50,118 nt of DNA, taken from positions 1-50,118 of the forward strand of contig JAFDHQ010000003.1 of NCBI GenBank assembly GCA_019308685.1, given 5' to 3'. A model generated the notes under the pieces. That model ran no database searches. It was not told the DNA's origin and saw only the letters and a program-made list of their open reading frames with translations. The stretch comes from Deltaproteobacteria bacterium. GTDB lineage: Bacteria > Desulfobacterota > Desulfobacteria > Desulfobacterales > UBA11574. Both the position numbers and the translations under genes were made by a program. Of this stretch, positions 11,703-36,535 are shown piece after piece (the first letter of the stretch is position 1; each line of letters opens with the position of its first letter).

Positions 11703-11747
11703 TGTCGATTCCTTCCATGTATAATAGTAAAAATCCTGGCACAGACC

Positions 11748-11816
11748 AGGCTTTGGTTATCCCCAGAGCGGATTTGTTTTGTTTGAAGTTCATTGAATTA
11801 TTGAAATTACAAATAT
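11748..11816. repeat. Dispersed repeat, family D, copy 2
   Basis: Matches 8342-8410 closely (GGCTTTGGTTATCCCCAG, then TTCATTGA and TTATTGAAATTAC). It fills the gap between the kinase and regulator genes. No frame is present. Copies in both places are in the same orientation. Confidence 0.6.
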
Positions 11817-11857
11817 CTGATTTCTGTATCGTATAACTATTGCTTTTGCATTTGGCT

Positions 11858-17395: not shown

Positions 17396-17400
17396 AATTT

Positions 17401-18234: not shown

Positions 18235-18869
18235 TAAGAGATCTCTCCGCGAGTCTGAAAATAAGCTTTTTGAATTTCCTTGACCGCCTTGGACTTAGGC
18301 GCGGATAATTTTAACCTTCCTTTACGCAACAACGTCATGGCCAACTGAAGCTCTTGTTTAAAGGTTCCGTTCTTTATCTTTGCATGCAGAATATCCGGCT
18401 TTGAATAATATGCTCTCATCAATCGAAATTCGTTTACTCTTCCGGACTTGATGAGTTCTTCCAGAAAGGTATGATGAAATACGGCAAGGCTTTTTTCCTT
18501 GGGAGTTATGGATGAACGGGCCGCCATCATGCGCAAATGATTGATAATTTCCGCCACATCCACCTCGTTGGGACAATATGTGGTACACATTTCACAGGAT
18601 AAACACAGCCAGATGGTTGAGGATTTTAATAGTCTTATGCGCCATCCCAACTGAACATAGCGAATGATCTGGTGAGGCTTGATATCCATGAAACCACTGA
18701 TAGGGCAGGCATTGGTACAGCGTTCGCATTGATAGCATGCGGATACATTGACACCGGTTTCTCCTTGAATTCTGTTTAGAAAATAATCTCCCCGGTCCCC
18801 GATGAATTCTCTTTGCTCGCAGGAATCATATTCCGTTGCTGTCTCCGGATCTGAAATGCTATTATGCAT
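18234..18869 (-). CDS. hdrC: Heterodisulfide reductase subunit C-like
   Basis: 211 residues with two ferredoxin [4Fe-4S] motifs (CYQCERCTNACPISG and CLSCEMCTTYCPNEV) and a helical C-terminus, the usual HdrC layout. It carries electrons from HdrA to HdrB. ATG at 18869 is preceded by AAAAGGAC at a good distance; an in-frame TTG at 18920 would add 17 residues and lacks a clear site. A sigma-70-like promoter lies at 18949-18977 on the same strand. The mvhD at 19054 is transcribed divergently and may provide the missing partner. Confidence 0.92.
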   Translation of the reverse strand: MHNSISDPETATEYDSCEQREFIGDRGDYFLNRIQGETGVNVSACYQCERCTNACPISGFMDIKPHQIIRYVQLGWRIRLLKSSTIWLCLSCEMCTTYCPNEVDVAEIINHLRMMAARSSITPKEKSLAVFHHTFLEELIKSGRVNEFRLMRAYYSKPDILHAKIKNGTFKQELQLAMTLLRKGRLKLSAPKSKAVKEIQKAYFQTRGEIS

Positions 18870-18948
18870 CTTATTTGTCCTTTTAAAATTGTGGTGAATC
18901 CTTAAAAGGTTGCTTTTCAAGCTAACTATTTAAAATTTTATTGAAAAT

Positions 18949-19747: not shown

Positions 19748-22700
19748 ATGTCCATCAGGGTAGGTTTTTATGTCTGCCATTGCGGGATCAATATCGCAGG
19801 CAAAGTTCGGGTTGAGGAGGTGGCCGACTTTGCCCGAAAGCTGAAAAATGTGGTGATCGCCCGGGACTATAAGTTTATGTGTTCGGACCCGGGCCAGGAG
19901 ATGATTGAAAAGGACATTAGGGAATTTAACCTTAACCGGGTGGTGGTAGCCTCTTGCTCACCCAGACTGCATGAAAAGACCTTTCAAAGTGCCTGCCGCC
20001 GGGCCGCTCTTAATCCTTATTTTTTCCAGATGGCCTCTGTTCGCGAACAAGTGTCCTGGGTCACCGAGGATGAAGATGAAGCCACCCAGAAAGCGAAAAC
20101 ACTGGCGGCGGCGGCGATCAACCGGGTCAATTACCATGAGAGACTTGATGATCGTGAGGCAGTGGTACATCCCGATATCATGGTCGTGGGTGGCGGTATT
20201 TCGGGCATGCAGGCTGCTTTAGACATCGGCAATGCCGGGCATAAAGTATATCTGGTGGAAAAATCGACGACCATTGGCGGGCACATGCTTCAATTCGATA
20301 AGACATTTCCCACGCTCGACTGTGCCGCCTGTATCGGAACCCCAAAAATGGTTGACGTGGTCCAAAATCCAAACATCGAGTTGATCTCATACAGCGAAGT
20401 AACGGAGGTGTCGGGATTCATTGGTAACTACACCGTCAAAATCCGTCGTAAGCCGCGATATGTAAAGGAAGGTGTCTGTACGGGATGTGGGGAATGTGCG
20501 AATGTCTGTCCGGTGTCAGTCCCGAGTGAGTGGGATGAGGGGCTGGGTCATCGCGCAGCCATTTATAGGGCATTCCCACAGGCCGTACCCATTACCTTCT
20601 GTATAGATAAAAAAGATCGGGCCCCTTGTGCGATCGCTTGTCCGGCGGGCATCAATGTCCAGGGCTATGTGCAACTCATCAGCCAAGGCAAGTACCGGGA
20701 AGCAACCCGGTTAATTATGGAGCGACTGCCCCTTCCGGGGGTACTTGGACGAGTCTGCCCGCATCCTTGTGAATCTCAATGCCGGAGGTTGGAGGTGGAT
20801 GAGGCCATTGCCATCAGGGATTTAAAGCGCTTTGCCGCAGATCATACAAACCTGACAGAACTCGAACCGCCGGAAATTCAGGAATGTTCGGAGAAGGTAG
20901 CAGTGGTCGGCTCAGGTCCGTCCGGGCTGACCGTAGCATACTACCTGCGGTTAAAGGGCTATCAGGTAACTATTTATGAGGCGCTTGACGTCTTGGGCGG
21001 AATGCTTCGGGTGGGAATTCCGGATTTTCGTCTCCCTTCACAAGTTCTTGACCATGAGATCGATTATATTCTCCGCCTGGGTGTTAAGACGCGAACCGGA
21101 GTCCGGTTTGGATCTGATCTTACACTTAACGATTTGAAACAAGAGGGTTTCTCCGCTGTGTTTCTCGGAATCGGAGCTCATGATTCCCTGGATATGCACA
21201 TTCCCGGTGAGAAGGACACGCAAGGAGTTATGGATGCAGTTCGTTTTTTAAGGCAAGTAAATTTGGGGGATAAAACCTGCCCCGGCAGACAAGTTGTCGT
21301 GGTTGGCGGCGGAAATGTGGCCATTGATACGGCACGGGCGGCAAAGCGCCTGGGCGCCCGGGAAGTTACTGTGGTTTATCGCCGCTCGGAACGGGAAATG
21401 CCCGCCTATGCTGAAGAGATTGAAGGTGCTAAAAATGAAGAAATTCGTTTTTTCTTTCTCACCGCTCCGGTCAAAATTCTTGAAAAACAGGGTAAGGTTG
21501 ACGGCTTTGAATGTATCCGTACCAAACTGGGGCCACCGGATGCCAGCGGGCGCCGTCGCCCATTGCCGGTGGCAGGTTCCGAATTCGTGATTCCCTGTGA
21601 TGCGGTGATTCCGGCCATTGGCCAGAAAACCCATGCGCCCTGGGCCGACCGGGAGCCCGACCTTATATGGTCTCCGAGAAACACCTTGAAGGTAAACCTC
21701 CGGACAATGCAAACCAGTATTCCCTACGTGTTTGCCGGAGGCGATGCGGTCATGGGTCCGGCAACGGTGATAGAGGCCGTAGCTGCCGGTCACAAGGCTG
21801 TTGAGGCAATCCATCGCTATATTAACGGCGAAGATCTGGACCTTTATGCAAAACAGGTTGAAGTCCGGGAACAACCGGGCCGCGATTGGCAGGAAATTCC
21901 GGATGGGCTTTACCGGAAATCCCGGGCACATCCACAGCATCTAGACCCAAAGCTGAGTGCAACGTCCTTTGACGAAGTGGACCTTGGTCTTTCAGAAAGC
22001 GAGGCACAACGAGAAGCCAGGCGCTGCCTGAATTGCGGTCTCTGCTGTGAATGTATGGAATGCGTCCGGGTTTGTGAGGCAAATGCCATAGACCACCGTA
22101 TGAAGGAAAAAGAATTAGAGGTAAAGGTTGGGAGCATTATCATCGCCACCGGATACGACACCATAGATCCCACGCCCATGAAGCAGTTTGGATACGGCAA
22201 ATACCCAAATGTCTTTACCGCCCTTGAATTCGAGCGTCTCAGCAATGCGACCGGTCCCACCGGCGGTGAGATCCTTATCAGAGACCAAAACGGGGAACTC
22301 ACCCGAATTCCAAAAAGGGTGGCCATTCTCCACTGCATCGGCAGCCGGGATGTAAATTATCATGAATACTGCTCCCGGGTTTGCTGTATGTACGCCCTCA
22401 AGTATGCCCATCTGATCCATGAAAAAGTGGGCCACGATGCTCAAATTTTTAATTTTTACATTGACATGCGTTGCTTTGGCAAAGGTTATGAAGAGTTTTA
22501 CGAAAGGTGTCAGCGAGAAGGAACCCATTTCATCAGGGGCAAGGTGGCGGAGATTACCGATCAGGCGATCAAACCCGAAGAGCACGGCAAACTCATCACC
22601 ATTGCAGAAGACACTCTCCTGGGACGGAGCATACGGATTCCGGTGGATATGGTAATCCTGTGCAATGCGATTCAGGCCCGAAGCGATGCTCAAGAGGTTG

Positions 22701-23158
22701 GCAGGATTTTTGGAGTCAACCAGGGTGCAGACGGTTTTTTTCTGGAGGAACACCCCAAACTGGGTCCTCTGGACACTGCTACGGACGGAGTTTTTCTGGC
22801 CGGGGTCTGTCAGGGCCCCAAAGATATTCCGGATTCGGTTTGCCAGGCATCCGGCGCGGCTGTCAAAGCCCTGGCATTAGCTACTCGGGGCAAAGTGGAG
22901 ATTGCTCCGATCATATCGTGGATCGACCCGGACGTGTGCGCGGGATGCCAGACCTGTATTGATCTTTGTCCATATTCGGCTATAGAATATAACGTTCGCA
23001 AAGGCATCTCGGTGGTCAATGAGGCACTTTGCAAAGGGTGTGGGAGTTGTGCCGGATTTTGTCCCAGCGGTGCGGCACAGGTCAAACATTTCAATGAAAA
23101 ACAGATTTTTGCAGAACTCGAAGGAATCATTGATTCATTGAATTCAGTAGGAATTTAA
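19748..23158 (+). CDS. hdrA: HdrA-GltD/NfnB fusion flavoprotein
   Basis: 1136 residues. An N-terminal HdrA linker domain (CHCGINIAG) precedes the FAD motif GGGISG (about 146) and DCAAC. A [4Fe-4S] motif (CTGCGECANVCP, about 243) is followed by a GltD/NfnB-like NAD(P)H-FAD domain (about 292-700: PCAIACPAGINVQGY, GSGPSG, GGGNVAIDTARA), a CLNCGLCCECMEC cluster, the HdrA core (CIGSRD, CSRVCCMYA) and two C-terminal ferredoxin motifs (CAGCQTCIDLCP, CKGCGSCAGFCP). Unlike the 1113-5588 protein it has one HdrA half and no second FAD half. The GltD part suggests NAD(P)H as one bifurcation partner. It heads the plus-strand block with mvhD, frhB-like, hdrA-REC, hdrC and hdrB. Confidence 0.9.
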   Translation: MSIRVGFYVCHCGINIAGKVRVEEVADFARKLKNVVIARDYKFMCSDPGQEMIEKDIREFNLNRVVVASCSPRLHEKTFQSACRRAALNPYFFQMASVREQVSWVTEDEDEATQKAKTLAAAAINRVNYHERLDDREAVVHPDIMVVGGGISGMQAALDIGNAGHKVYLVEKSTTIGGHMLQFDKTFPTLDCAACIGTPKMVDVVQNPNIELISYSEVTEVSGFIGNYTVKIRRKPRYVKEGVCTGCGECANVCPVSVPSEWDEGLGHRAAIYRAFPQAVPITFCIDKKDRAPCAIACPAGINVQGYVQLISQGKYREATRLIMERLPLPGVLGRVCPHPCESQCRRLEVDEAIAIRDLKRFAADHTNLTELEPPEIQECSEKVAVVGSGPSGLTVAYYLRLKGYQVTIYEALDVLGGMLRVGIPDFRLPSQVLDHEIDYILRLGVKTRTGVRFGSDLTLNDLKQEGFSAVFLGIGAHDSLDMHIPGEKDTQGVMDAVRFLRQVNLGDKTCPGRQVVVVGGGNVAIDTARAAKRLGAREVTVVYRRSEREMPAYAEEIEGAKNEEIRFFFLTAPVKILEKQGKVDGFECIRTKLGPPDASGRRRPLPVAGSEFVIPCDAVIPAIGQKTHAPWADREPDLIWSPRNTLKVNLRTMQTSIPYVFAGGDAVMGPATVIEAVAAGHKAVEAIHRYINGEDLDLYAKQVEVREQPGRDWQEIPDGLYRKSRAHPQHLDPKLSATSFDEVDLGLSESEAQREARRCLNCGLCCECMECVRVCEANAIDHRMKEKELEVKVGSIIIATGYDTIDPTPMKQFGYGKYPNVFTALEFERLSNATGPTGGEILIRDQNGELTRIPKRVAILHCIGSRDVNYHEYCSRVCCMYALKYAHLIHEKVGHDAQIFNFYIDMRCFGKGYEEFYERCQREGTHFIRGKVAEITDQAIKPEEHGKLITIAEDTLLGRSIRIPVDMVILCNAIQARSDAQEVGRIFGVNQGADGFFLEEHPKLGPLDTATDGVFLAGVCQGPKDIPDSVCQASGAAVKALALATRGKVEIAPIISWIDPDVCAGCQTCIDLCPYSAIEYNVRKGISVVNEALCKGCGSCAGFCPSGAAQVKHFNEKQIFAELEGIIDSLNSVGI

Positions 23159-23207: not shown

Positions 23208-23351
23208 AGAGACCTTTGAAAAACGTTCAATTTTGTTCAAGTTCAAGGAAGACGAAGATTTTAACCACAGGCATACATTGAGTATGTCGAGGATTAAAAT
23301 CTGAGTCTGACGCAGAAATTGGGCAAAAGGGGACGTTTTGCAAAGGTCTCT
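23208..23351. repeat. Palindromic repeat, family B core with different ends, before mvhD
   Basis: Ends are AGAGACCTTTGAAAAACGT and the complement of ACGTTTTGCAAAGGTCTCT. The core has CAGGCATACATTGAGTATG and TCGAGGATTAAAAT, like 5612-5756 and 38063-38212. Its right end touches the ribosome site of mvhD (TAGGAGGGAG at 23351). It may attenuate or uncouple expression between hdrA and the downstream genes. Confidence 0.65.
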
Positions 23352-23363
23352 AGGAGGGAGATC

Positions 23364-23786
23364 ATGGAAGGTTTTGAACCGACAATCATCGCTTTTGTGT
23401 GTAACTGGTGTACATATACCGCCGCAGATCTGGCCGGAACCTCAAGATTGGGTTATCCCGCCAACGTAAGATTGATTCGGGTGATGTGCACCGGCATGGT
23501 TGACCCCAAATATGTGATCAAGGCCTTTCTTGAAGGGGCCGATGCGGTTCTTGTGAGTGGGTGCCATCCCGGAGATTGCCATTACATTAACGGAAATTAC
23601 AAAGCGAGAAGACGGATCAAGCTTCTCAAAGAAATCCTTCCCCAATTCGGCTTCGACGATGAACGGCTCCGCTTGACCTGGATCGGGGCCAGCGATGGAA
23701 TCCAGTTTGCCGAGACCATTCGTAAAATGGTAACACAGATGAAGATCCTGGGACCCAACGAGGCCAAATTAAAGATTGTAATATAA
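23364..23786 (+). CDS. mvhD: MvhD-type iron-sulfur subunit (Cys form)
   Basis: 140 residues, full length for the family. The motifs are CNWCTYTAADLAG, VRLIRVMCTG, VSGCHPGDCHYINGN and a conserved C-terminal region. All cluster Cys positions are present, so it is the reference for the two UGA-containing paralogues. MvhD hands electrons from an upstream oxidoreductase (hydrogenase, formate dehydrogenase or FrhB-type) to HdrA. ATG at 23364 follows AGGAGGGAGATC; an upstream in-frame start at 23319 lies within the repeat and is less likely. The next gene (frhB-like) starts 41 bases later, implying that these two subunits work together. Confidence 0.93.
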   Translation: MEGFEPTIIAFVCNWCTYTAADLAGTSRLGYPANVRLIRVMCTGMVDPKYVIKAFLEGADAVLVSGCHPGDCHYINGNYKARRRIKLLKEILPQFGFDDERLRLTWIGASDGIQFAETIRKMVTQMKILGPNEAKLKIVI

Positions 23787-23827: not shown

Positions 23828-24970
23828 GTGAAAACAGCGAAAATCAAAGTAAAAGACGGAGACCTTTTGGCAACTCTGCGAGAGTTTTTTCGATCCATCC
23901 TCCAGTTGGAGGATATCAGTGCGATTCTGGTTCCACAACATCTCCCCATGAAGAATGTGGTAATGCCGACTCTGGTGACCGATCCTGAACAACTCAACGG
24001 CATCGATCCTCTGGCACCGGCGTTTCCCATCAATTCAGCCAAAATTGTTTCCCGGCTCACTCGTAAACCCATGGGACAAAAAGTGGCGGTTGTGTTGCGC
24101 CCCTGTGAGATAAGGGCATTTATCGAATTGGTGAAACTCAAGCAAGGCCGGACTGAAGAAGTGGTTCTGGTGGGAATCGACTGCCTGGGAGCATACAAGA
24201 ACCTCGATTATACTCAGATTGTCGGGGAACAAGAAACAGAATTCACTTCAAGATTTTACCGGAATGTCTTATCCGGGAAAGAAATCGCCGAAAACGGGTT
24301 TGACCTGAACCCGGCCTGCAAAGCATGCGAACACCCTGTTCCCGATGGTGCAGACATTTTAATCGGACTTTTCGGGGTCGATACAAACCACAGCCTGATG
24401 ATCCAGGCCCGGACTTTAAACGGAGAGGACCTCTATAGAAATCTTAATCTTTCACATGCAGAGGAACCACCGGAACGTACGGCGGCCGTTGCATCGCTGA
24501 TCGCTGAAAGAACCGCCTATCGTGATAAAATGTTTGCAGAAACTTCCGAGGTCACCAACAGCGTAGAGAAACTGAACATTTATCTTGCCAACTGCATAAA
24601 CTGTTACAACTGCAGGGTGGCCTGTCCGGTTTGCTATTGCAAAGAATGTGTTTTTGTTACAGATGTTTTTAACCATGAACCGATTCAGTACCTGCGATGG
24701 GCCAATCGCAAGGGTATCATCAAGATGCCCACCGATACCGTGTTTTATCATATTACCCGGCTGGCACACATGAGTACCGCATGTGTCGGGTGCGGACAGT
24801 GTTCCAATGCCTGTCCCAACAACATTCCGGTAATGGAGTTGTTTCGAACCGTTTCATTTCAAACACAAAAAGGGTTCGAATACGAACCGGGGAAGAGTAT
24901 TGAGGATGAACCTCCCTTGTCGGTGTTTCGGGAAGATGAACTCGCCGATGTTGTCGGAATCGGAAAATAG
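23828..24970 (+). CDS. FrhB/FdhB-like flavin and iron-sulfur subunit
   Basis: 380 residues of the coenzyme F420 hydrogenase/dehydrogenase beta-subunit family. The N-terminal part has RPCEIRAFIEL and GIDCLGAY. A Cys cluster (CINCYNCRVACPVCYCKEC, about 258-276) and a ferredoxin motif CVGCGQCSNACP (about 318) follow. Family members bind FAD and oxidise F420H2 or, in formate dehydrogenases, relay electrons. The substrate here is not clear: the partners are mvhD upstream and hdrA-REC 17 bases downstream, so it probably feeds the Hdr complex. No catalytic hydrogenase or formate dehydrogenase subunit is within the window. Confidence 0.85.
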   Translation: MKTAKIKVKDGDLLATLREFFRSILQLEDISAILVPQHLPMKNVVMPTLVTDPEQLNGIDPLAPAFPINSAKIVSRLTRKPMGQKVAVVLRPCEIRAFIELVKLKQGRTEEVVLVGIDCLGAYKNLDYTQIVGEQETEFTSRFYRNVLSGKEIAENGFDLNPACKACEHPVPDGADILIGLFGVDTNHSLMIQARTLNGEDLYRNLNLSHAEEPPERTAAVASLIAERTAYRDKMFAETSEVTNSVEKLNIYLANCINCYNCRVACPVCYCKECVFVTDVFNHEPIQYLRWANRKGIIKMPTDTVFYHITRLAHMSTACVGCGQCSNACPNNIPVMELFRTVSFQTQKGFEYEPGKSIEDEPPLSVFREDELADVVGIGK

Positions 24971-24987: not shown

Positions 24988-27900
24988 ATGAAGAAAAAAA
25001 TCGGTAAAGCATTGGTGGTGGGATCCGGAATCAGCGGTATCCGTGCGGCCCTGGATCTGGCGGAATTTGGCTATGGTGTCATTCTCATCGACCGGTTACC
25101 GCACATTGGAGGAATTTTAAGCCAGCTCGATTATCAGTTTCCGACCGACCGCTGCGGTATGTGCAAAATGCTTCCTCTGGTGGATCGAGATGCATCGTCC
25201 CAGTATTGCCTTCGCAAAGGACTTTTTCACGAAAACATCCAAATCCGTCTTTCCACAGAACTTACCTCTGTGGAAGGCGAACCAGGCCATTTTCAGGTGA
25301 CATTGCGTCAGAAGCCGAGACTTGTTGATCCTGTTCTGTGTGTGGGATGCGGTGAGTGTGTGAAAGTCTGCCCGGTGGAAGTTCCGGACTCTTTCCACGC
25401 CGGTATGACCACTCGAAAGGCCATCTACCTTCCGGTTCCACATGCTATTCCCAATCCGTACGTAATAGATATGGAGGCCTGTACCCGGTGCGGGGACTGT
25501 GAAGCGGTTTGTCCCACGGACGCCATCAAGGTCTCCGAGCACATACACAGAGACTTTCGGGTCCTGGTGGTGGACGACGAATTGATCGTCCGCGATTCAA
25601 TCAAGGAATGGCTGGAAGATGAAGGTTTTACCGTCAATGTAGCTGCATCCGGCCCGGAAGCCCTGGACATTCTGTCAAAACAATCCTATCAACTCATGCT
25701 CACGGATATTAAAATGCCGGGAATGGGCGGTGTGGAACTCCTTCAAAAAGCCAAGGAGGACTTTCCCGATATCTGCGTGATTATGATGACCGCCTATGCC
25801 ACGGTAGAAACTGCTGTGGAGGCCATGAAGATCGGAGCATCCGACTATCTCATAAAACCCTTTGAACCCGATAATCTTATTCAAATGGTTTTTCAAAAAT
25901 ACCAGGAGCACGAAGCCGCCAGTGAAGCACCCATAGAAGTCGGGGCTCTGGTTCTTTGTGGAGGTACAGCCTATTTTAATCCTTCCGAAGGCGAGAACAC
26001 CTTCGGGTATGGTGTTTATCCGAATGTGGTAACGAGTCTGGATTTTGAAAGAATTTTAAGTAGCGCCGCCCTGCAACAGGGTCGTCTGGTCCGGCCTTCC
26101 GACAGCAAACCCCTTCGCAAGGTGGCCTGGTTCCAGTGTGTGGGATCCAGAGACATTAAGATCGACGCCGACTTTTGCTCCTTTGTCTGCTGTATGCACG
26201 CAATTAAAGAAGCCCTGGTGGCCAAGGAAAGGGCTGAAGATGAACTGGAAGCGGCTATTTTTTACATGGATATGCGCACGTTTGGAAAGTCGTTTCAGCG
26301 CTACCGCTGCCAGGCGGAAACTAAGCACGGCGTTCGATTTGAAAGGGGGCGTGTCCATTCCATAATCCAGGATGAAGCCAGTGGAGATCTTATTGTCGGT
26401 CATGTAGATTATACCGGAACCCATAAAGAAGAGCACTTCGATATGGTTGTACTCTCCGTGGGCCAACGGCCGGCGCCAGGCACGGCTGAGCTGGCTGAAA
26501 TGGTTGGAATCTCTCTCAATCAGTGGGGATTCTGTAAGGCCGAACCTTTTTCAGAGACGCTGACCAGTCAGGAAGGAATCCTGTTGGGAGGTTCCTTTTC
26601 AGGTCTCAAGGACATCAATGATTCTGTAATCCAGGCTTCTGCTGCTGCTTTGGCTGCATCCCTTGTGATTCATACCACCGGTGGCAGCCTTCTTCTGGAA
26701 CCTAAATCCCATGAGCCTTTTCTCGACATTTCACAAGAACCGCCCAGAGTTATGGTGCTTGTCTGTACCTGCGGCGACACCCTTTCCAAGCTTTTCGATC
26801 CGCAGCAACTTGCCCGGCGCCTTAAGACTGATCCGGGTGTGGACCGGGTTTTCTTTCTTGAACAGACCTGTACCGCTGCGGGCTGGGAAAACCTTGTTGA
26901 ATTGGTGGAAAAACACAAACCCAACCGTATTCTGATCGGGGCCTGCATTCCCTATCTGTACTCGCGAAAAACCAGGGAACTGGGACGACGTGTGGGTTTG
27001 GTGCCCGGCCTCATTCATGTGGTCAATTTAAGGCTCATGGATCAACTGTCAAAACTCAAGGATGAAACTCCGTCAGCAGATGAAATAACAGCAATTATCC
27101 ATGAGCTATCGTCTATTTTGGGAATGGGTCTTGCCAGACTTAAATGGGCTGACCCTACTCCTGCGCCCAGGGTGAAGATTTTTCAGCAGGCTCTGGTGGT
27201 GGGCGGGGGAATCGCCGGAATGACCGCCGCCCTTGCCATCGCAGATCACGGCTTTCAAGTAGATCTGGTGGAAAAAGAAGAGATGTTGGGGGGTAATCTT
27301 ACTTGGTTGGAGCGAGATCTGGAAGGAAACATAACAGAGATTATTTTGGAGAAAACACGGCATAATTTGGAAAAACATCCCTTGATCCGGGTCCACACCC
27401 GAAGCCGGGTGCTCGGCTCCTATGGTCAGGTGGGGCGTTTTTATACCACTATTGAGGACAAAGCAAAAGGGACTTTCACCCTGGAACACGGCGTGACCAT
27501 TCTTGCAACTGGAGGAATGGAAGCGACAACCACCTCATATAACTACGACAAAAGCGAGGCCATTATCACCCAAAAGGAGCTGGAGCAAAAAATAAATGAC
27601 AATAAACTCCATCCGAGCCAACTCGAATCAGTGGTCATGATTCAGTGTGTGGATTCCAGAGAGGAGCCAAGGAATTACTGCAGCCGAATATGCTGTGATA
27701 CCTCTTTAAAAGATGCTCTATGTCTCAAGAGGCAAAATCCTGATATTGACATCTACATTTTTTATCGGGACATTATGGCCTATGGATTTGTCGAGTCCTA
27801 TTACACCCAAGCCCGCAAGGCAGGTGTGATCTTTATCCCCTATGATGTGGCTGAAAAACCCCGGGTAACGGTCACGGACGGATCTATTCAGGTAACCGCC

Positions 27901-28428
27901 TCTGAACCAATTATCGGTCAAAAAATACGGCTGGATGCGGATCTTGTTGTCCTCGCCACCGGCATTGTTCCCACACTTCCAAAGGACCTTGCAGAAGCTT
28001 TCGGCGTGACTGTCGATCAGGACGGTTTCTTTCAGGAGGCGGAGACGAAATGGAGACCCGTGGATTCGATCAAGGAAGGTGTTTTTGCCTGCGGTCTGGC
28101 ACATTCTCCCCGCAATATTGCAGAATCCATAGCCACTGCCAGAGCGGCGTCCCAGCGCGCTTTGAGGATTCTCTGCCACGAACACATGCCTGCCGGCAAA
28201 GTCGTGGCGGAGATTCATCACAGCCTATGCAGTTTATGTGAACAATGCATCGACGCCTGCCCCTATGGTGCCCGTACCTTAGATCTTGATCTGGAAAAGG
28301 TGATCATCAATCCCGCTATGTGCCAGGGATGCGGATCATGCGCCACGGTTTGTCCCAACAGCGCGTCGACGCTCGTTGGGTTTTCAGACCGGCAAATGCT
28401 CGATGTCATTGATTCTGCATTTGAATAA
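24988..28428 (+). CDS. hdrA: Double HdrA with an embedded response-regulator receiver domain
   Basis: 1146 residues. First HdrA half: GSGISG FAD motif, variant DRCGMC, [4Fe-4S] CVGCGECVKVCP and CTRCGDCEAVCP (about 165-180). A complete receiver domain then occupies about 190-310: VVDDE, phospho-acceptor Asp240 in LTDIKMPGM, MMTAYATV, and KPFEP with the conserved Lys. The HdrA core resumes (CVGSRD, CSFVCCMHA). The second half has VCTCGDTL, GGGIAG, CVDSRE and two C-terminal ferredoxin motifs (CSLCEQCIDACP, CQGCGSCATVCP). The junctions are clean and the frame is uninterrupted for 3.4 kb. The insert sits next to the place where paralogues carry a GltD domain. Phosphorylation may gate electron transfer (inference). 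The likely kinase is at 31641-33896. Expressed with frhB-like upstream and hdrC-hdrB downstream. Confidence 0.92.
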   Translation: MKKKIGKALVVGSGISGIRAALDLAEFGYGVILIDRLPHIGGILSQLDYQFPTDRCGMCKMLPLVDRDASSQYCLRKGLFHENIQIRLSTELTSVEGEPGHFQVTLRQKPRLVDPVLCVGCGECVKVCPVEVPDSFHAGMTTRKAIYLPVPHAIPNPYVIDMEACTRCGDCEAVCPTDAIKVSEHIHRDFRVLVVDDELIVRDSIKEWLEDEGFTVNVAASGPEALDILSKQSYQLMLTDIKMPGMGGVELLQKAKEDFPDICVIMMTAYATVETAVEAMKIGASDYLIKPFEPDNLIQMVFQKYQEHEAASEAPIEVGALVLCGGTAYFNPSEGENTFGYGVYPNVVTSLDFERILSSAALQQGRLVRPSDSKPLRKVAWFQCVGSRDIKIDADFCSFVCCMHAIKEALVAKERAEDELEAAIFYMDMRTFGKSFQRYRCQAETKHGVRFERGRVHSIIQDEASGDLIVGHVDYTGTHKEEHFDMVVLSVGQRPAPGTAELAEMVGISLNQWGFCKAEPFSETLTSQEGILLGGSFSGLKDINDSVIQASAAALAASLVIHTTGGSLLLEPKSHEPFLDISQEPPRVMVLVCTCGDTLSKLFDPQQLARRLKTDPGVDRVFFLEQTCTAAGWENLVELVEKHKPNRILIGACIPYLYSRKTRELGRRVGLVPGLIHVVNLRLMDQLSKLKDETPSADEITAIIHELSSILGMGLARLKWADPTPAPRVKIFQQALVVGGGIAGMTAALAIADHGFQVDLVEKEEMLGGNLTWLERDLEGNITEIILEKTRHNLEKHPLIRVHTRSRVLGSYGQVGRFYTTIEDKAKGTFTLEHGVTILATGGMEATTTSYNYDKSEAIITQKELEQKINDNKLHPSQLESVVMIQCVDSREEPRNYCSRICCDTSLKDALCLKRQNPDIDIYIFYRDIMAYGFVESYYTQARKAGVIFIPYDVAEKPRVTVTDGSIQVTASEPIIGQKIRLDADLVVLATGIVPTLPKDLAEAFGVTVDQDGFFQEAETKWRPVDSIKEGVFACGLAHSPRNIAESIATARAASQRALRILCHEHMPAGKVVAEIHHSLCSLCEQCIDACPYGARTLDLDLEKVIINPAMCQGCGSCATVCPNSASTLVGFSDRQMLDVIDSAFE

Positions 28429-28559: not shown

Positions 28560-29141
28560 ATGAACCCTTTGGAAAAATTAGAAAGCGAACAAAAATCTGA
28601 AACTGCACCTGCTCTGGTTATTGATTCACTGGCATCCATCCGGGATATGGTCAGCGCCTGCATCCAGTGCGGTACGTGTACGGGTTCTTGTCCCAATGCC
28701 TTTGCCATGGATCTCACTCCCCGTCAGCTGTGGTACAATGTCCTTAGAGGAGAAAAAGAAACAATTTTTCATTCAAAGACCTTCTCACTATGTTCCGTCT
28801 GCTATTACTGTACACTACGATGCCCACGGGGTCTTCCGCTTACCGAGGCGATGAGTGCACTCAAGCAGATAGCCGCAAAGGAGAATCTGGCGCCCTATAA
28901 GAAGAGCACCCGTTTTTACAAAAGTTTTTTGGAGAGCGTATATCGTCATGGCCGGGTCAGGGAGATGGAGTTGATGACACTCTATTTTATTTCCATGAAA
29001 AACCCCTTTCTGCCCCTTCAGTTTGCGCCCTTGGGAATAAAACTCATGGGCAAAGGAAAGATTTCTTTCGAGATTCCTTCAAAAGGAAACGGTGCGTTAA
29101 AAGCGATCTTTCGTAAGGTGGAAGAGTTAGAGCAGAATTAA
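28560..29141 (+). CDS. hdrC: Heterodisulfide reductase subunit C-like
   Basis: 193 residues with two ferredoxin motifs (CIQCGTCTGSCPNA at about 37 and CSVCYYCTLRCPRG at about 76), the first distinct from that of the 18.2 kb copy, then a helical tail. It moves electrons from HdrA to HdrB. The start follows AAAAAGGGGGGCAA. It lies 131 bases after hdrA-REC and 78 before hdrB, in the order hdrA-hdrC-hdrB, the reverse of the minus-strand operon. Confidence 0.92.
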   Translation: MNPLEKLESEQKSETAPALVIDSLASIRDMVSACIQCGTCTGSCPNAFAMDLTPRQLWYNVLRGEKETIFHSKTFSLCSVCYYCTLRCPRGLPLTEAMSALKQIAAKENLAPYKKSTRFYKSFLESVYRHGRVREMELMTLYFISMKNPFLPLQFAPLGIKLMGKGKISFEIPSKGNGALKAIFRKVEELEQN

Positions 29142-29182: not shown

Positions 29183-29205
29183 ATAAAATCGTAATACGAT
29201 TTTAT
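29183..29205. promoter_or_regulatory. Perfect palindrome just upstream of hdrB
   Basis: ATAAAATCGTA and TACGATTTTAT flank a single A (realistic RNA loop TAATA). It lies 5 bases before the GGAAGG ribosome site of hdrB, so it could be an operator or limit access to that site. Confidence 0.45.
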
Positions 29206-29219
29206 TGTGGAAGGCAAAT

Positions 29220-30089
29220 ATGAAATACCTATATTATCCGGGATGTTCTCTTGAGGGAACGGCGTTAGAATACAACTCCTCCACCAGAACCTTCATGCAG
29301 GAACTGGGAGCAGAACTCATTGAACTTGAAGACTGGACCTGTTGCGGTGCCAGTGCTGCCGAGGCCACAAGCCACCTTCTTTCTCTGGCGCTTCCGGCAC
29401 TCGTTCTCGCAAAGGCCGAGAACATGGATGGAGTTAAGGAAATTCTTGTTCCGTGCAGCGCGTGCTATCTAAACCTGAAAAAGGTCGAGGAAAAAATACG
29501 AAAGGATCGGGAGCTTCTTGACCAAATCAACATCATATTAGCCGAAGAAAAGCTTAACCTGCGCGGTCAAATGAAGGTCCGGCATCTCCTTGACGTGGTG
29601 GCAAATGACGTGGGTTCTAAAAAGATTTTTGCCCGCGTGAAAAAGCCGTTAACCGATCTTATCATCGCTCCCTATTATGGCTGCCAGTGCCTTCGCCCGT
29701 ACTCTATTTTTGACGATCCCGAAGATCCCTGCTCTATGGAAGGGATTATTAAAGCCTCGGGGGCAAATATCCATCAATGGAATATGGGGGGAAGATGCTG
29801 TGGCGCATCTCATATGACCACCAAGCCAGAGGTAGCCCTGGAACTCGTGGCCGCTATATTGAAAATGGCCCGGGGAGCAGATGCCATTGTTACGGTTTGT
29901 CCCATGTGCCAGATGAACCTGGAGGCATACCAGAAAAAAATATCAGGGATGTGCAAAGAGGATCTGAGCATGCCCATCCTTTATCTTCCTCAGTTTCTGG
30001 GGCTGGCCCTTGGCCTCTCGGAACAGGATTTGCGATTGGACATGAATCTATCCTTTACCAAAGCCTTCCGAAACAAAGTACTGTCATGA
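29220..30089 (+). CDS. hdrB: Heterodisulfide reductase subunit B-like
   Basis: 289 residues with two CCG domains: YPGCSLEG, WTCCGASAAE and CSACYLN in the first; YYGCQCLRP, RCCGASHMT and CPMCQMN in the second. These bind the two non-cubane [4Fe-4S] clusters of the disulfide-cleaving site. ATG at 29220 follows GTGGAAGGCAA at normal spacing; a TTG at 29205 would lie inside the palindrome. Its stop overlaps an ATG (ATGA) that opens a 36-codon frame. Confidence 0.92.
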   Translation: MKYLYYPGCSLEGTALEYNSSTRTFMQELGAELIELEDWTCCGASAAEATSHLLSLALPALVLAKAENMDGVKEILVPCSACYLNLKKVEEKIRKDRELLDQINIILAEEKLNLRGQMKVRHLLDVVANDVGSKKIFARVKKPLTDLIIAPYYGCQCLRPYSIFDDPEDPCSMEGIIKASGANIHQWNMGGRCCGASHMTTKPEVALELVAAILKMARGADAIVTVCPMCQMNLEAYQKKISGMCKEDLSMPILYLPQFLGLALGLSEQDLRLDMNLSFTKAFRNKVLS

Positions 30090-30196
30090 ACTTACAAATC
30101 AAACCTCCCCTTTTCTTTGAAACCTTCTGGCTTGAAGAGGAAAGGCCTGACGTTACACGGATGCTCGTCGGGAAATGGGTAGCCGGTTTATACTGA
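30086..30196 (+). CDS. Small 36-residue frame coupled to hdrB
   Basis: The ATG overlaps the hdrB stop as ATGA, which is how coupled genes are joined. The product has no recognised family; it is mostly polar with FFETFWLEEERPD and VGKWVAGLY. It overlaps the 3' end of the convergent Usp-REC-Usp gene by 44 bases, which weakens the case. It could be a chance frame. Confidence 0.25.
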   Translation: MNLQIKPPLFFETFWLEEERPDVTRMLVGKWVAGLY

Positions 30197-31472
30197 TGGT
30201 TGGACATGCCGCGGAAAGGGCAACCCGAAGGGCATTTGAACCGAGCAAAGCTTTTTCCGGATCAATCTCTTTGGAATGATGGGCCATAATGATTAAGTCG
30301 GCATTCCTCCACCTGGCGAATTTGAGGATCTCGACATATGGCCTCCCCTCCCATGATTCAAAAGAATATTCTACAACTCCTTCTAATTCCGAGCCATATT
30401 TGTTTTTCATTCTTTCCTTGGCGTCATTGATACTGTTTTCTATATTCGCTTGATCTATCATCAAAACATTCTCATCATGGATAACAGGCACCACGTGAAA
30501 GAGGTGGAGTTTGGCCTGGTATCGGCGGGTCATCCTGGAGGCAAAATCAAAGGCATGTTGAGCCCGTTCAGAAAAGTCCGTAGCCAGGACAATATTAGAA
30601 AACGTCACCTTTACCGATCGAAGAGCTTCAAAATCCTGGTATACCTGAAAGACCTTATCCACAAGGATCTCAGGGTCAAATGGTTTGAGGAGATAGTCAA
30701 GGGCTCCAATCTTCAAGGCTTCTATGGCCGTTTCTACGGTGGCGTAGGCGGTCATCATGATTACGGTAAGATCGGGAAAGGATTTATGGGCCCTTTTAAG
30801 GAGTTCAACACCGTCCATTCCCGGCATTTTGATATCCGTAAGCATCAGGTGATACGGTTGGGTCGACAGTTTATCCAGAGCCTCCGGACCGGATGCCGCC
30901 ATATCCACGGTATAGCCCTCATCTTCAAGCCATTCTTTGATTGAATCGCGAACGACGAGTTCATCGTCCACCACCAGAATTCGAAAATCCCGGCGCTCAC
31001 CAACAGCATCCTTGGTCCAGATCTTTGGAACCTGCTTGGGAACGATCATCACGGGACAGCGTGCCCGTTGGCTCACTTTTTGGAGGCTGCTGCCGGCCAT
31101 CCCCCATCTTGTCGGCAGATCTTCATCGGTTTCTTTTTCATGGGAACCCATGACAATCAGGTCAACGACTTTATTTCTGGCAAAACGCAAGATTTCGCTA
31201 TGAGGCATTCCTGCAACAACTTCGATGGTATAATTTTGAACCCCAAATTTTTCGATCTTTTCTTGATAGTAATGAGCTATTTCTTTTTTTGTTTCCTCTA
31301 CTTTGCCGGAAGGCAAAAGATGTCTCATTCCTCCCCATCCATTTGAGTCTATGCCGTAGGCGTGGAAAATATACAATTCGGCATTGCCTTGCTTGGCCAG
31401 AGCAAAAGCCATATCCGCAGCACGTTTACTGGCTTCTGTGGGAGATGCAGCGAAAAGAACTTTTTTAAACAT
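30153..31472 (-). CDS. Usp-REC-Usp signalling protein
   Basis: 439 residues: a universal-stress domain (about 1-150: VLFAASPTEASKRAA, VVDLIVMGSHEKE, CPVMIVP), a receiver domain (about 165-285: VVDDE, LTDIKMPGMDG, MMTAYATV, LKPFDP) and a second Usp domain (about 290-439: NIVLATDFSERAQHAF, NADLIIMAHHS). Usp domains usually bind ATP or nucleotides and form dimers; the REC adds a phosphorylation switch. No DNA-binding output is present. The REC is about 75% identical (my manual count) to the one inside HdrA at 24988. The kinase gene upstream is the likely partner. AAGGAGG precedes the start. Confidence 0.9.
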   Translation of the reverse strand: MFKKVLFAASPTEASKRAADMAFALAKQGNAELYIFHAYGIDSNGWGGMRHLLPSGKVEETKKEIAHYYQEKIEKFGVQNYTIEVVAGMPHSEILRFARNKVVDLIVMGSHEKETDEDLPTRWGMAGSSLQKVSQRARCPVMIVPKQVPKIWTKDAVGERRDFRILVVDDELVVRDSIKEWLEDEGYTVDMAASGPEALDKLSTQPYHLMLTDIKMPGMDGVELLKRAHKSFPDLTVIMMTAYATVETAIEALKIGALDYLLKPFDPEILVDKVFQVYQDFEALRSVKVTFSNIVLATDFSERAQHAFDFASRMTRRYQAKLHLFHVVPVIHDENVLMIDQANIENSINDAKERMKNKYGSELEGVVEYSFESWEGRPYVEILKFARWRNADLIIMAHHSKEIDPEKALLGSNALRVALSAACPTISINRLPISRRASV

Positions 31473-31640: not shown

Positions 31641-33896
31641 CTAAGCTTTTCTGTATTGCCGCTTGGGTTGATCCTCCCTCTTCAGCGACGGAAGACGAAT
31701 CGTAAAAACGGTCCCTTCCCCCAGCTTGCTGTCAACAGTGATAGATCCCTTATAGCGGTCGATGATACCGTAAACCATGGAAAGTCCGAGTCCAAGCCCC
31801 TTCCCTTCTGTTTTTGTGGAATAGAACGGATCAAAAATCTGGTGAATGTCTTCCTCAGCAATACCGCATCCGGTATCTTCTATTTTTATTTCGACCATCT
31901 CCGTTATCGGATCAAATGAACTTACCATGGTCAGGGTGCCGCCATCCGACATGGCGTCAATAGCATTAAAAATGAGATTGATAACGCATTGCTGGGTTTG
32001 ATTAAAGTCCCCCAAAACCTTTGGAATATTCGGATCAAAATCGGTTTTAATCTGGATATTCTGAAGCATGAGTTTGTGCTGGCTGAGCAGAATGCATTTT
32101 TCCAGAAGCTCGTTAATACTCATTTCGCTGAGTTCCAATTCAGATTTGCGTGAGAACGCCAGCAGATTGGAAACGATCTTGGAGCAGCGGCTGGTCTCAC
32201 TCTCAACTAGGGTGAGATGTTTTTGAAACTTTTCTATTCTTTTTTGGTCCAAATCCCCCCTTTTAATGATTTTGAGCATCAGGCGAATATAGTTCAAGAT
32301 TCCTGATAGGGGATTGTTGAGCTCATGGACGACGCTGGCGGACAGCCTGCCCAGAGAAATCATTTTGTGCTCGTGAATCAGTCGGGTTTGATCGGCAAAC
32401 TGCTGTTCCATTCTTCTGATTTCTCTTAAATCCCTGAAAAATCCCACCATGCCGATCTCTTCGTCTTGGTCAAACATAACCGTAGCCGAAAGCTGGACCG
32501 GGATCTTATCACCGGTTTTATTAATCATATATGTTTCAAAAAGAATAAGCCGGTTTTTCCCTCCGTATTCATCGGAAACCAGTTCTTTCCTGACCTCTTC
32601 CAACATCGCCGGCGGGAAAAGATCGTTAAAAGACATTTTCATGATCATTTCATATGCGGAATAACCCAGCAGTTTCTCGGCTTGCTGATTGAAAACGACA
32701 ATGGAACCATCTCTGTCCGAGGCGATGATGGCATCTATGGAACTCTGAATCAGGTTGTGTTCAAACTCAAAGAGTGTTTGGAGCTCTTGTTGCAGGCGCT
32801 TGACCTCGCGCATATCTTTAAAATAGCCTACCGTGGCAACTTCCTGACCTTCTTCATACAGCAATGTTGCGGAGAGCAGAATGGGTACGATCTGCCCATA
32901 CTTATCGACAATTTCCACTTTATAGTTAAGCAAACGGCCGCCCCCCCCGTGTTCAGGCCCGTAAATCATTCTCTTAATTTTTTTAGCCTCGCCCTCTTTG
33001 TAAAACCGGGTAACGTGAATTTTGGAAACTTCCTCCTGGGTGTAACCGAAAACGTTTTCAGCGCCTTTGTTAAAAATGATGATGTTGCCTTTACGGTCAT
33101 TGGCAATGATCGGGTCTATTGAGGTCTGGATAAGGTTGGTTTGAAAGTCATGCGCTTTTTTAAGCTTTCGTTCCATCTCCTTTCTCTGGGTTTGATCCAC
33201 ACAGATCCCTTCATACCCGATAACCTTCCCCTCTCGATCATAGCGGGCGTGGGCGGTTCGCAATACCGAGATCACTCTTCCATCCTTGCGCTTCAAATCA
33301 ACTTCATAGTCAATGACGTGACCGTCTCGTTCAATCAAATCCATGTATTTTCGGCGATCTTCAGGTTTCAGATAAAGGTCTCTGGCGATATCTACCTTAA
33401 GAAACTCCTCTTTGCTCGTGTATCCCAACATCTCCATAAGAGCCTGATTGGCATCAATAAACTTACCTTCCTTGCTGCTTATATGCACACCGACACGCAC
33501 ATGTTCAAACAATTTTTTGTAGTCTTCTATGGAGGCGCGAAGCATTTTTTCGCGCTCTTTTGTCTCTGTGATATCCTGATATATACAAAAATGCGATATG
33601 GTTCCTTTATCGGTTTGCAAAGGTAATTCGAAAATCTCGAAAGTTTTGTCGATGTGCGGAAAGTAGTTTTCCCAACGAAGGGTTTCTCCCTTAAAGACTT
33701 CTTTTGCCCTGCACCAGGAGCAGATATCGTCTTGATTCGCAATCACCTGATAACATTTCTTTCCAATGCCTTCTCCAAAGACGTTAATACTGGCCTTGTT
33801 CATAAATTGTACAGTGTAATCATCCCCGATGATATAAACGCCACACCCCATGGCATCTAAAATTGAAGCAAGCCGTTGGGTCTCTTGATCAATCAT
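31641..33896 (-). CDS. Four-PAS sensor histidine kinase
   Basis: 751 residues with no visible membrane segment. PAS1 (about 5-110) has CYQV then C-x2-C (ICSWC), like the kinase at 13.9 kb. PAS2 (about 125-240), PAS3 (about 250-370) and PAS4 (about 380-495) follow, then a HisKA helix with the phospho-accepting His in SVVHELNNPLSG and a HATPase (DTGCGI, GLGLGLSMVYG). No transcription-factor regulator adjoins it; the Usp-REC-Usp gene follows on the same strand. Because that REC and the HdrA-embedded REC are nearly the same, this kinase may phosphorylate both (inference). AAGGAGAG precedes the start. Confidence 0.9.
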   Translation of the reverse strand: MIDQETQRLASILDAMGCGVYIIGDDYTVQFMNKASINVFGEGIGKKCYQVIANQDDICSWCRAKEVFKGETLRWENYFPHIDKTFEIFELPLQTDKGTISHFCIYQDITETKEREKMLRASIEDYKKLFEHVRVGVHISSKEGKFIDANQALMEMLGYTSKEEFLKVDIARDLYLKPEDRRKYMDLIERDGHVIDYEVDLKRKDGRVISVLRTAHARYDREGKVIGYEGICVDQTQRKEMERKLKKAHDFQTNLIQTSIDPIIANDRKGNIIIFNKGAENVFGYTQEEVSKIHVTRFYKEGEAKKIKRMIYGPEHGGGGRLLNYKVEIVDKYGQIVPILLSATLLYEEGQEVATVGYFKDMREVKRLQQELQTLFEFEHNLIQSSIDAIIASDRDGSIVVFNQQAEKLLGYSAYEMIMKMSFNDLFPPAMLEEVRKELVSDEYGGKNRLILFETYMINKTGDKIPVQLSATVMFDQDEEIGMVGFFRDLREIRRMEQQFADQTRLIHEHKMISLGRLSASVVHELNNPLSGILNYIRLMLKIIKRGDLDQKRIEKFQKHLTLVESETSRCSKIVSNLLAFSRKSELELSEMSINELLEKCILLSQHKLMLQNIQIKTDFDPNIPKVLGDFNQTQQCVINLIFNAIDAMSDGGTLTMVSSFDPITEMVEIKIEDTGCGIAEEDIHQIFDPFYSTKTEGKGLGLGLSMVYGIIDRYKGSITVDSKLGEGTVFTIRLPSLKREDQPKRQYRKA

Positions 33897-33979: not shown

Positions 33980-34366
33980 TTATCTGGGATGACATTCGCT
34001 GCACATGATCGGTCCGGCCTTTTTTTCCTGGTGGCATCCCTTGCATTGCAAATGGTAAATGTTTACAAGGGAAATGGGGTTGTCGCCTTTATTAATGGTA
34101 TGGCATTCCGAACATTCCTGGCCTTCGGACGAATCATATTCAACGAGTTTCCCATCCTCATATACATGATGACACGTATTGCATTCATCAAGCTCTGCCT
34201 GTTCATTGTGCTGATCATGCAGAAACGGAACCCCCGGTCTCATCTTCTTCTCAAATGCGCTGTCTTCAACAGTTGTCACATCTTCCTGTGAATAGCCGGA
34301 CATCACCGCAAATATACAACCCAACAGAATTATTAACGTATATATTATCAAAGTCCTTTTTTCCAT
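33980..34366 (-). CDS. tmcA: Tetraheme cytochrome c3 TmcA
   Basis: 128 residues. An N-terminal signal peptide (LIIYTLIILLGCIFAVMS) exports it to the periplasm. Four CxxCH motifs (CNTCH, CSECH, CKGCH, CSECH) bind four hemes, and the composition is acidic, as in the acidic type II cytochrome c3 of the Tmc complex. It takes electrons from periplasmic cytochrome c3 and hands them to the membrane part. ATG at 34366 is chosen because the signal peptide starts there after ATCGGGGGAATC. It is the last gene of tmcD-C-B-A. Confidence 0.92.
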   Translation of the reverse strand: MEKRTLIIYTLIILLGCIFAVMSGYSQEDVTTVEDSAFEKKMRPGVPFLHDQHNEQAELDECNTCHHVYEDGKLVEYDSSEGQECSECHTINKGDNPISLVNIYHLQCKGCHQEKKAGPIMCSECHPR

Positions 34367-34412
34367 CAAGATTCCCCCGATTTTATGAGCCCGGCCCAAC
34401 TGAATTTACTCT

Positions 34413-35756
34413 TTATTCCGGTTTTTCCATGACTTTGTATATAATATCACCCAGAAAATGTAGTTCCATATCGAGGCCGAAGTGATGATTAATATCTTCA
34501 ATTCCGCCATGACAGTTATGGCAAGGGGCTATTATAACCTTTGCACCCCTGGCCTTTGTCGCAAATAACTGCTCTGCCTTGATCCTGTTCCCTTTAATCC
34601 GTGTCATCTTGTATTGAGGACCGGTGTTTATTACACCGCCTCCGGCACAACAACAATAATTATGTTCCCGATTGGGATGCATCTCGATAAATTCTTCACA
34701 AATGGCATTAACAACATAACGCGCCTTTTCATGAAGCCCTTTTCCCCGGACAATATTGCAGGGATCCTGAAAGGTCACCGGCTTATCATATTTTTTAGTG
34801 ATTTTTATCTTCCCCTCTTTTAATAATTCATAATAGAGTTCCACGGCATGTATAATGGGTATTGGCGGCATCTTCCATGCCAGCCAGCGGTTTCCCACAT
34901 CATATACCGATCGGAATGCATGTCCGCATTCTCCCATTACAATACGCTTGACCTTGAGGCGCATCGCCGTTTCAAAATGTGCCTTTTTTAACCGGCCCAT
35001 CATTTCATAGTCTCCGGTAAACATGCATAGATCGCTGTTGTCCCATCCGGGTGTTGCCGGCATGGTAAAATCAACTCCGGCTACATTCATGATAACCGCA
35101 GCCTGATATATGAGCTGTGCTCGAAATTTCGGTTCAGGAGCAATCACAGAGTAAAGAGTTTCAGCTCCTTCCTTTTCCAGGGGTATTCTTAAAGAAGATA
35201 TTTCATCCTGTGCTTCTTCTTCTTGCCAAAACAGACTGTCAATCCATTCATCTTCCTTTACCCACATCTGGTTTAAGCAGGCGGAATGGCTGTGCGCGGT
35301 ATCCTGTATGTACAGCGGGGTGACCCCCAGCATATGGCAGAGCCTTCGCACAATAGACATTAAGTAAGCAATGTCTATACCAAATGGGCAATACATGGCG
35401 CAGCGTCGGCACAGGTTGCATTCCGTGTATGCAATGCGGGAGGCATTTCTTATAAACTCAGGATCAACGTTACCCTTTTTCTTTAATATTTCCCATATGG
35501 TTTGTTTCACCTTACCCGCAGGAGAATATTTCGGATCGTTATCATGGGAAAGATAATAGTGGCAAGCCTCAGAGCAAAGTCCACAGTGGACACAGGTTTC
35601 AACATAGGCCTTCAGCCGGGCGCCGGTTTCCGACGCCAAAACCTTGTTGATAACCTGCTTGATCTTCTCCGGAGTCAAGCGTGCAATTCCCTTATCAATC
35701 CCCTCATCAACAACTTTATTAATTTCATCTTTTTTATTAATGGCTGGTTCAGCCAT
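34413..35756 (-). CDS. tmcB: Tmc complex cytoplasmic Fe-S subunit TmcB
   Basis: 447 residues. Two N-terminal ferredoxin motifs (CVHCGLCSEACH and CNLCRRCAMYCPFG) and two HdrD-like CCG regions (CGHAFRS and QDPCNIVRG; CCCAGGG and CHNCHGG). This matches TmcB, which is related to HdrD, DsrK and HmcF and faces the cytoplasm. The Tmc complex links the periplasmic cytochrome pool with a cytoplasmic or quinone acceptor. It follows tmcC by 84 bases, in which a family E repeat lies. Confidence 0.92.
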   Translation of the reverse strand: MAEPAINKKDEINKVVDEGIDKGIARLTPEKIKQVINKVLASETGARLKAYVETCVHCGLCSEACHYYLSHDNDPKYSPAGKVKQTIWEILKKKGNVDPEFIRNASRIAYTECNLCRRCAMYCPFGIDIAYLMSIVRRLCHMLGVTPLYIQDTAHSHSACLNQMWVKEDEWIDSLFWQEEEAQDEISSLRIPLEKEGAETLYSVIAPEPKFRAQLIYQAAVIMNVAGVDFTMPATPGWDNSDLCMFTGDYEMMGRLKKAHFETAMRLKVKRIVMGECGHAFRSVYDVGNRWLAWKMPPIPIIHAVELYYELLKEGKIKITKKYDKPVTFQDPCNIVRGKGLHEKARYVVNAICEEFIEMHPNREHNYCCCAGGGVINTGPQYKMTRIKGNRIKAEQLFATKARGAKVIIAPCHNCHGGIEDINHHFGLDMELHFLGDIIYKVMEKPE

Positions 35757-35771
35757 GTTATATTCTCCTTT

Positions 35772-35808
35772 TATTACCTGAATCTTGCACGATTCGGAGG
35801 CTTTTATA
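35772..35808. repeat. Short dispersed repeat, family E, copy 2
   Basis: GAATCTTGCACGATTCGG and AGGCTTTTATAT, matching 31564-31600. Located between tmcC and tmcB, immediately ahead of the tmcB ribosome site on the minus strand. Confidence 0.55.
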
Positions 35809-35840
35809 TTTCATGCAAAATTCAGGGATTAAATTGTTTC

Positions 35841-36500: not shown

Positions 36501-36535
36501 GGCTTTTTTCCCTTTTAGCCCGAGAGAGATCCGGG

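Follow-up and report, generated by a model that had tools for sequence, protein, structure and literature searches.

The window analyzed here, a 50,118-nucleotide stretch of contig JAFDHQ010000003.1 from a deltaproteobacterium of the order Desulfobacterales, encodes a type II HdrA that carries a response regulator receiver (REC) domain within its first flavin-binding module (HdrA-REC). The gene and its domains, the rest of the operon, and two genes downstream on the opposite strand are as follows.

24988..28428, + strand: HdrA(type II)-REC fusion, 1146 aa (ORF, Pfam, PDB sequence match, AlphaFold2 model, Foldseek)
24988..25302, + strand: module 1, first part of the FAD (thioredoxin-reductase-like) domain, aa 1-105
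25321..25533, + strand: inserted ferredoxin domain with two 4Fe-4S motifs, aa 112-182 (Fer4 matches)
25555..25920, + strand: receiver domain (REC), aa 190-311 (Pfam, residues, AlphaFold2 model)
25921..26688, + strand: module 1, rest of the FAD domain, aa 312-567, with E354 and K407 inside
26737..28359, + strand: module 2, consisting of an N-domain (aa 584-725), a second FAD domain, and a C-terminal ferredoxin domain (aa 1074-1124)
19748..23158, + strand: HdrA with an inserted GltD/NfnB-like NAD(P)H domain (HdrL type; Pfam Fer4_20 and Pyr_redox_2)
23319..23786, + strand: MvhD (FlpD; PF02662, E = 4e-53)
23828..24970, + strand: FrhB/FdhB-like protein with a 4Fe-4S domain (PF04432, Fer4_8)
28560..29141, + strand: HdrC (Fer4_17/Fer4_8)
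29205..30089, + strand: HdrB with two CCG domains (PF02754, E = 3e-21)
30153..31472, - strand: USP-REC-USP protein, with its own REC at 30633-30995
31641..33896, - strand: PAS-PAS-PAS-HisKA-HATPase histidine kinase, candidate local partner, beside the USP-REC-USP gene

The initial annotation had described a complete receiver lying inside HdrA in a single uninterrupted frame, and both points hold. Positions 25555..25920 are exactly codons 190-311 of the 1146-aa ORF, with no stop, and aa 192-301 match the Response_reg domain with an E value of 2e-32 and a score of 112 bits (cut-off, 30.2). All four of the motifs it listed (VVDDE, D240, MMTAYATV, and KPFEP) are present, and the domain has the acidic pair, the phospho-acceptor Asp (D240, codon 25705-25707), the Thr/Ser, and the Lys of a phospho-receiver (PF00072). 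The position assigned to the receiver needs some correction: it does follow the ferredoxin motifs, but it does not precede the Rossmann core, as the first half of that fold lies upstream (aa 1-105). In addition, the protein is a double HdrA, with a second module at aa 584-1146.

The best PDB sequence match of HdrA-REC is 5odc_A, the HdrA of Methanothermococcus (E = 1.7e-118). Residues 7-182 align with 5odc residues 145-310, and residues 316-509 align with 319-511, with REC occupying the eight-residue step between 5odc residues 310 and 319. At this point, the chain leaves the inserted ferredoxin domain and re-enters the thioredoxin-reductase fold, so that REC sits at the foot of the domain through which low-potential electrons are proposed to exit (PMC9012536). 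In module 2, residues 584-757 align with 5odc residues 2-168 (the N-domain) and residues 965-1144 with 467-649 (the C-terminal ferredoxin domain). Pfam matches to Rossmann/FAD domains fall near aa 7-41 and at aa 735-848, and Fer4 matches are confined to the inserted domain of module 1 and the C terminus; the second FAD domain has no inserted ferredoxin domain. Module 1 also contains a CGMC cluster motif at aa 56-59, and all 8 cysteines of its inserted ferredoxin domain are invariant among 63 full-length HdrA-REC orthologues. An AlphaFold2 model based on these orthologues has a pLDDT of 84.2 and a pTM of 0.82; its REC blocks have pLDDT values of ~75-90 and the strand and helix order of a receiver. 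Foldseek ranks 1 to 12 for this model are all HdrA or HdrA-like chains.

With a thioredoxin-reductase-like FAD domain and both inserted and C-terminal ferredoxin domains, the protein is a member of the HdrA family. Its second module, comprising an N-domain, an FAD domain, and a C-terminal ferredoxin domain, brings the number of thioredoxin-reductase (FAD) domains in the chain to two and thus makes it a type II HdrA, as described for methane-metabolising archaea (PMC12054007). Lys409 and Glu356 at the FAD N5 (M. thermolithotrophicus numbering) are considered markers of bifurcating HdrA (PMC12054007). Their equivalents, K407 and E354, are invariant among the 63 orthologues; HdrA-REC carries both FBEB marker residues and is predicted to bifurcate electrons.

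The neighbors are those named by the initial annotation, i.e., FlpD/MvhD (starting at 23319), an FrhB-like protein with a ferredoxin domain (23828), HdrC (28560), and HdrB (29205). HdrB, HdrC, and MvhD are thus co-encoded with HdrA, as in HdrABC-MvhD systems. The gene order hdrL (HdrA-GltD)-mvhD-frhB-like-hdrA-REC-hdrC-hdrB recurs throughout the order, with the HdrL-type gene upstream of hdrA-REC and the frhB-like, hdrC, and hdrB genes all conserved in relatives; judging from the homologues, the start of MvhD is perhaps ~15 codons further in. Because no catalytic subunit of a hydrogenase or formate dehydrogenase was found among the Pfam-scanned operon genes, the electron donor is probably NAD(P)H, entering through the GltD-like domain of HdrL. 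A small single-domain receiver (~150 aa, with a weak Response_reg match) is a recurrent first gene of these operons, upstream of hdrL (e.g., L031:15447-15887 and L028:338-814).

The remainder of the window is also rich in redox genes. A second hdrCBA cluster (14336..18920 with 10350..13933, both on the - strand) encodes a 1019-aa double-FAD HdrA without REC, a nearby paralogue of HdrA-REC; the genes that follow it, for a PAS-GAF kinase and a regulator of the NtrC type, make this another pairing of Hdr with two-component genes. The Hdr-rich region further includes a 309-aa GcvH-like protein of the lipoate-carrier type (glycine cleavage H; 8544..9473, - strand); GcvH-like carriers accompany Hdr-like systems elsewhere. 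Directly beside the PAS kinase are genes for a cytochrome, an HdrD-like protein, and a NarI-like membrane subunit (33980..37819, - strand), which we take to be Tmc-like by resemblance. A 1345-aa fusion of GltD, FAD, and ferredoxin domains (1113..5150, - strand) adds to the several large flavin/iron-sulfur fusions of this window.

Across the family, the HdrA-REC operon is often followed by a histidine kinase and a REC-HATPase protein. A kinase is encoded within 6.5 kb downstream in 49 of 58 REC-bearing loci but in only 3 of 9 REC-less ones (Fisher p = 0.003); counting same-strand kinases alone gives 39 of 58 versus 2 of 9 (p = 0.02). The REC-less control is a small one (9 loci), and the loci compared include related ones that are not independent. 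A single orthologous family of HAMP-PAS-PAS-HisKA-HATPase kinases is found in 34 distinct loci, its members sharing 49 to 69% identity with the L031 kinase across most of its length or across the part present, and is often accompanied by the REC-HATPase protein. NtrC-type regulators adjoin just a minority of the HdrA-REC loci. Both the HAMP-PAS-PAS kinase and the REC-HATPase families are absent from the window genome (95% complete), where the best matches show 28 to 44% identity and the closest match to the kinase 29 to 39%. The PAS kinase at 31641..33896, whose orthologues in two congeners (89% and 76% identity) also adjoin this operon, is a candidate cognate of the HdrA receiver; with the kinase family of the other loci missing from this genome, that assignment is a guess.

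The catalytic quintet D196, D197, D240, T268, and K290 is intact in 94 of 96 HdrA receivers, the exceptions being L104, with a D-to-G change, and L098, with a truncated or broken ORF, and it is invariant in all 63 full-length HdrA-REC proteins. By mean pairwise identity, REC (0.76) is conserved at least as well as the enzyme around it, the remainder of the module averaging 0.68 and the middle domain 0.55. Positional entropies were compared with those of the sister NtrC-type regulators and of REC-kinases: helix alpha4 scores 0.28 in the HdrA receivers (n = 96) versus 0.80 in the sister regulators (n = 11, a far smaller set) and 1.48 in REC-kinases, and the beta4-alpha4 loop scores 0.15, 0.22, and 0.88, respectively. 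In the kinase-docking helix alpha1, the values are 0.89, 0.88, and 1.65. The constraint on the beta4-alpha4 and alpha4 output face is the trace that would be expected of a phosphorylation-dependent contact with the enzyme.

The nearly always intact quintet, the linked kinases, and the invariant K407 and E354 together make control of HdrA by kinase-dependent phosphorylation, as the initial annotation had proposed, the best-supported reading of these sequences. We estimate a probability of roughly 60% that HdrA-REC is a phosphorylation-switched enzyme. The accompanying suggestion that such control would operate without transcription fares less well: the closest kin of the receiver are NtrC-type regulators, which makes parallel transcriptional control likely. 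Observations that count against the phosphorylation switch include the lack of the dedicated kinase and REC-HATPase families in the window genome and the loss of catalytic residues in one lineage, described below.

Information could also flow in the opposite direction, with the redox state of the clusters or the FAD altering phosphorylation or dephosphorylation of REC, so that HdrA would serve as a redox sensor or phosphate sink (a “trigger enzyme”) reporting to the kinase, the REC-HATPase protein, and an NtrC-type regulator. REC adjoins the low-potential clusters in sequence, and the operons hold signaling outputs besides the kinase (REC-HATPase, the upstream single receiver, and the NtrC regulator). 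However, the extreme conservation extends beyond the active site and alpha1 to the alpha4 output face, which fits an output into the enzyme, and few of the loci have an NtrC regulator next to them. We regard this direction of flow as unlikely.

Alternatively, REC might be a docking module for a partner (the kinase, the REC-HATPase protein, or another Hdr subunit) or an architectural spacer for the ferredoxin domain, its phosphorylation being incidental. The hyperconserved alpha4 face would suit a permanent interface, and a pseudoreceiver does persist at the same site in one lineage. In three loci from one family (L151-L153; genomes G446, G099, and G332), the domain is kept and still matched by Pfam (E values of about 1e-5 to 1e-4), D197 and T268 are lost, and K290 is lost in two. 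These proteins nest among REC-bearing ones in both the receiver tree and the enzyme tree, a pattern indicating that the phosphorylation chemistry was lost once with the domain retained. The fold therefore has some noncatalytic value, which keeps the docking idea alive, and REC can also serve without canonical phosphorylation. The docking idea is still rather improbable: incidental phosphorylation would not have preserved five catalytic residues in all but two of the receivers across at least 24 families, and the kinase linkage would be left without an explanation.

In a third alternative, REC would respond independently of any kinase, autophosphorylating from acetyl-phosphate and thereby reading the acetyl-CoA/acetyl-phosphate status of the cell. 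Many receivers accept acetyl-phosphate, and the absence of the family-specific kinase from the window genome could be read this way. The kinase genes linked in most loci and the conserved alpha1 docking helix speak against such feedback, and we consider it very unlikely.

The phylogenetic distribution of HdrA-REC was examined by searching GTDB genomes with a query limited to residues 1-188, i.e., free of REC, to guard against bias. The search of HdrA homologues for an internal receiver that the initial annotation called for returned the same architecture, with REC at the same site, in all of the best 80 loci. Full-length, co-linear orthologues are 92% identical within the genus and 53 to 68% identical in other families, and among the numbered genomes, the REC form extends to 31 genera in at least 24 families. 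Carriers include two symbionts of Olavius algarvensis, Delta 3 (L103) and Delta 4 (L088), and a cultured strain with a finished chromosome, Desulfonema magnum 4be13 (L057), in which no kinase gene occurs in the 7 kb downstream. An assembly or binning chimera confined to one genome, or a decayed local insertion of the receiver from the neighboring USP-REC-USP gene, might be suspected with the closest REC in the genome only a few kilobases away, a typical assembly trap; it can be dismissed, given the identical architecture and site in independent assemblies at 92 to 53% identity across the order, the finished D. magnum chromosome among them, and a receiver tree in which the USP receiver derives from that of HdrA and not the reverse.

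REC-less relatives were found in a phylum-wide sample (L133-L139, L141, L143-L147, L149, and L150). They have a clean empty site, where the ferredoxin motif CPTxAIDL runs straight into the VGAI(I/V)L strand. In an enzyme tree built without the REC columns, a single change separates REC-bearing from REC-less proteins (SH-aLRT, 85), and all HdrA receivers form one clade in the receiver tree (support, 100/97). These two trees indicate a single insertion of REC into HdrA, at an early point in the evolution of the family, and several independent insertions are not needed to account for them. The HdrA-REC form thus appears to be ancient and conserved in sulfate-reducing bacteria.

The sister of the HdrA-REC clade is a set of NtrC-type regulators (100/91), with the sister link itself supported at 89/74 in a tree that is based on 111 alignment columns and leaves many forks without resolution. 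These regulators have the REC-AAA-Fis architecture in Pfam and are encoded beside kinases, often near HdrA-REC operons. The window genome, which holds about 95 to 110 receivers including that of HdrA, encodes one regulator of the sister type, directly behind a kinase (contig C152). Derivation from an NtrC-type receiver is the best explanation for the HdrA REC, judging from this tree. HdrA-REC is not itself a member of the NtrC family, as only REC is common to the two and the output domains are those of HdrA.

The closest relative of the HdrA receiver in the window genome is that of the USP-REC-USP protein (75% amino acid and 77% nucleotide identity). Its position within the HdrA-REC clade indicates that a universal stress protein later acquired a copy of the receiver of HdrA; recent copying from the USP protein into HdrA would run opposite to the direction given by the tree. 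This arrangement, with REC between two universal stress protein domains, was seen in just two of the loci examined, the window and a close relative (L041/L021). A USP gene also lies in the same cluster as the degenerate pseudoreceiver HdrA of L151-L153.

The phosphorylation switch could work as follows. A working, NtrC-derived receiver, placed where the chain leaves the inserted ferredoxin domain, would have been kept as a switch; a partner histidine kinase would phosphorylate D240, and the resulting change in the alpha4 face would be transmitted to the adjacent hinge of the ferredoxin domain. Lying at the root of the ferredoxin arm, the switch domain could shift the distance or exposure of the two outlet clusters and so alter electron exit from the bifurcating FAD through these clusters, which normally reduce ferredoxin. 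Phospho-D240 would thus bias the low-potential branch, and the balance between the ferredoxin and disulfide outputs of an Hdr complex fed by NAD(P)H, MvhD, and FrhB could be set within seconds, with no new protein. Cryo-EM of Hdr complexes indicates conformational gating of electron transfer (PMC12350162), which is in favor of such a switch. The published mobile arm, however, is formed by the N- and C-terminal parts of HdrA and not by the inserted ferredoxin domain, which counts against gating at the ferredoxin hinge. For the specific version of this scheme, in which many sulfate reducers use a dedicated HAMP-PAS-PAS kinase, often linked to a REC-HATPase protein, to phosphorylate the HdrA receiver and gate the ferredoxin branch of bifurcation, we would put the chances at about even.

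Several known systems resemble HdrA-REC in part. Archaeal type II HdrA (PMC12054007) shares the two FAD modules per chain, the K409/E356-type residues, and the co-located hdrBC, mvhD, and fdhB/frhB genes, but no receiver is mentioned for any of its 28 classes, whereas HdrA-REC has one, comes from bacterial sulfate-reducer lineages, and has kinase genes coupled to it. The HdrA of the HdrABC-MvhAGD and Elp-Hdr complexes (5odc and 8rvy), the best match in sequence and fold, has the same inserted and C-terminal ferredoxin domains, but it is a single module without REC. In NtrC-family regulators (REC-AAA-Fis), which have the closest receivers by tree, REC is N-terminal and the output is a sigma-54 activator; in HdrA-REC, it is internal and has a predicted electron-bifurcating flavoenzyme as its output. 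Hdr locus VIII of Desulfobacterium autotrophicum HRM2 (hdrL/hdrA4/hdrBC; PMC2702500) is likely the same operon type, judging by its published gene order. A figure legend in that 2009 genome paper names genes for response regulators and kinases at its Hdr loci, and by its published description, the only basis of comparison here, the paper mentions no receiver inside HdrA (PMC2702500). Like the pseudo-receivers described previously (PMC12632262), L151-L153 show the REC fold signal without the catalytic residues; unlike them, they are nested in a clade of intact receivers and lie inside an enzyme.

Our search of the open-access literature turned up no account of an HdrA with a receiver; as this search covered open-access papers only and such proteins may already be named in GenBank entries, the architecture is only provisionally considered undescribed. 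The HdrA and REC families are both known, and it is their combination that is new. Response regulator outputs are mostly DNA binding, second-messenger turnover, and protein-protein contacts, and an enzyme of this kind is an unusual output for a receiver. If the proposed control is real, phosphorylation or beryllofluoride could serve as an experimental switch and open the gating of bifurcation to direct tests. Two-component signaling, through a receiver built into the catalytic core, would then be a means by which bacteria adjust core redox energy conservation posttranslationally. The bacteria in question are the dominant oxidizers of carbon in anoxic marine sediments.
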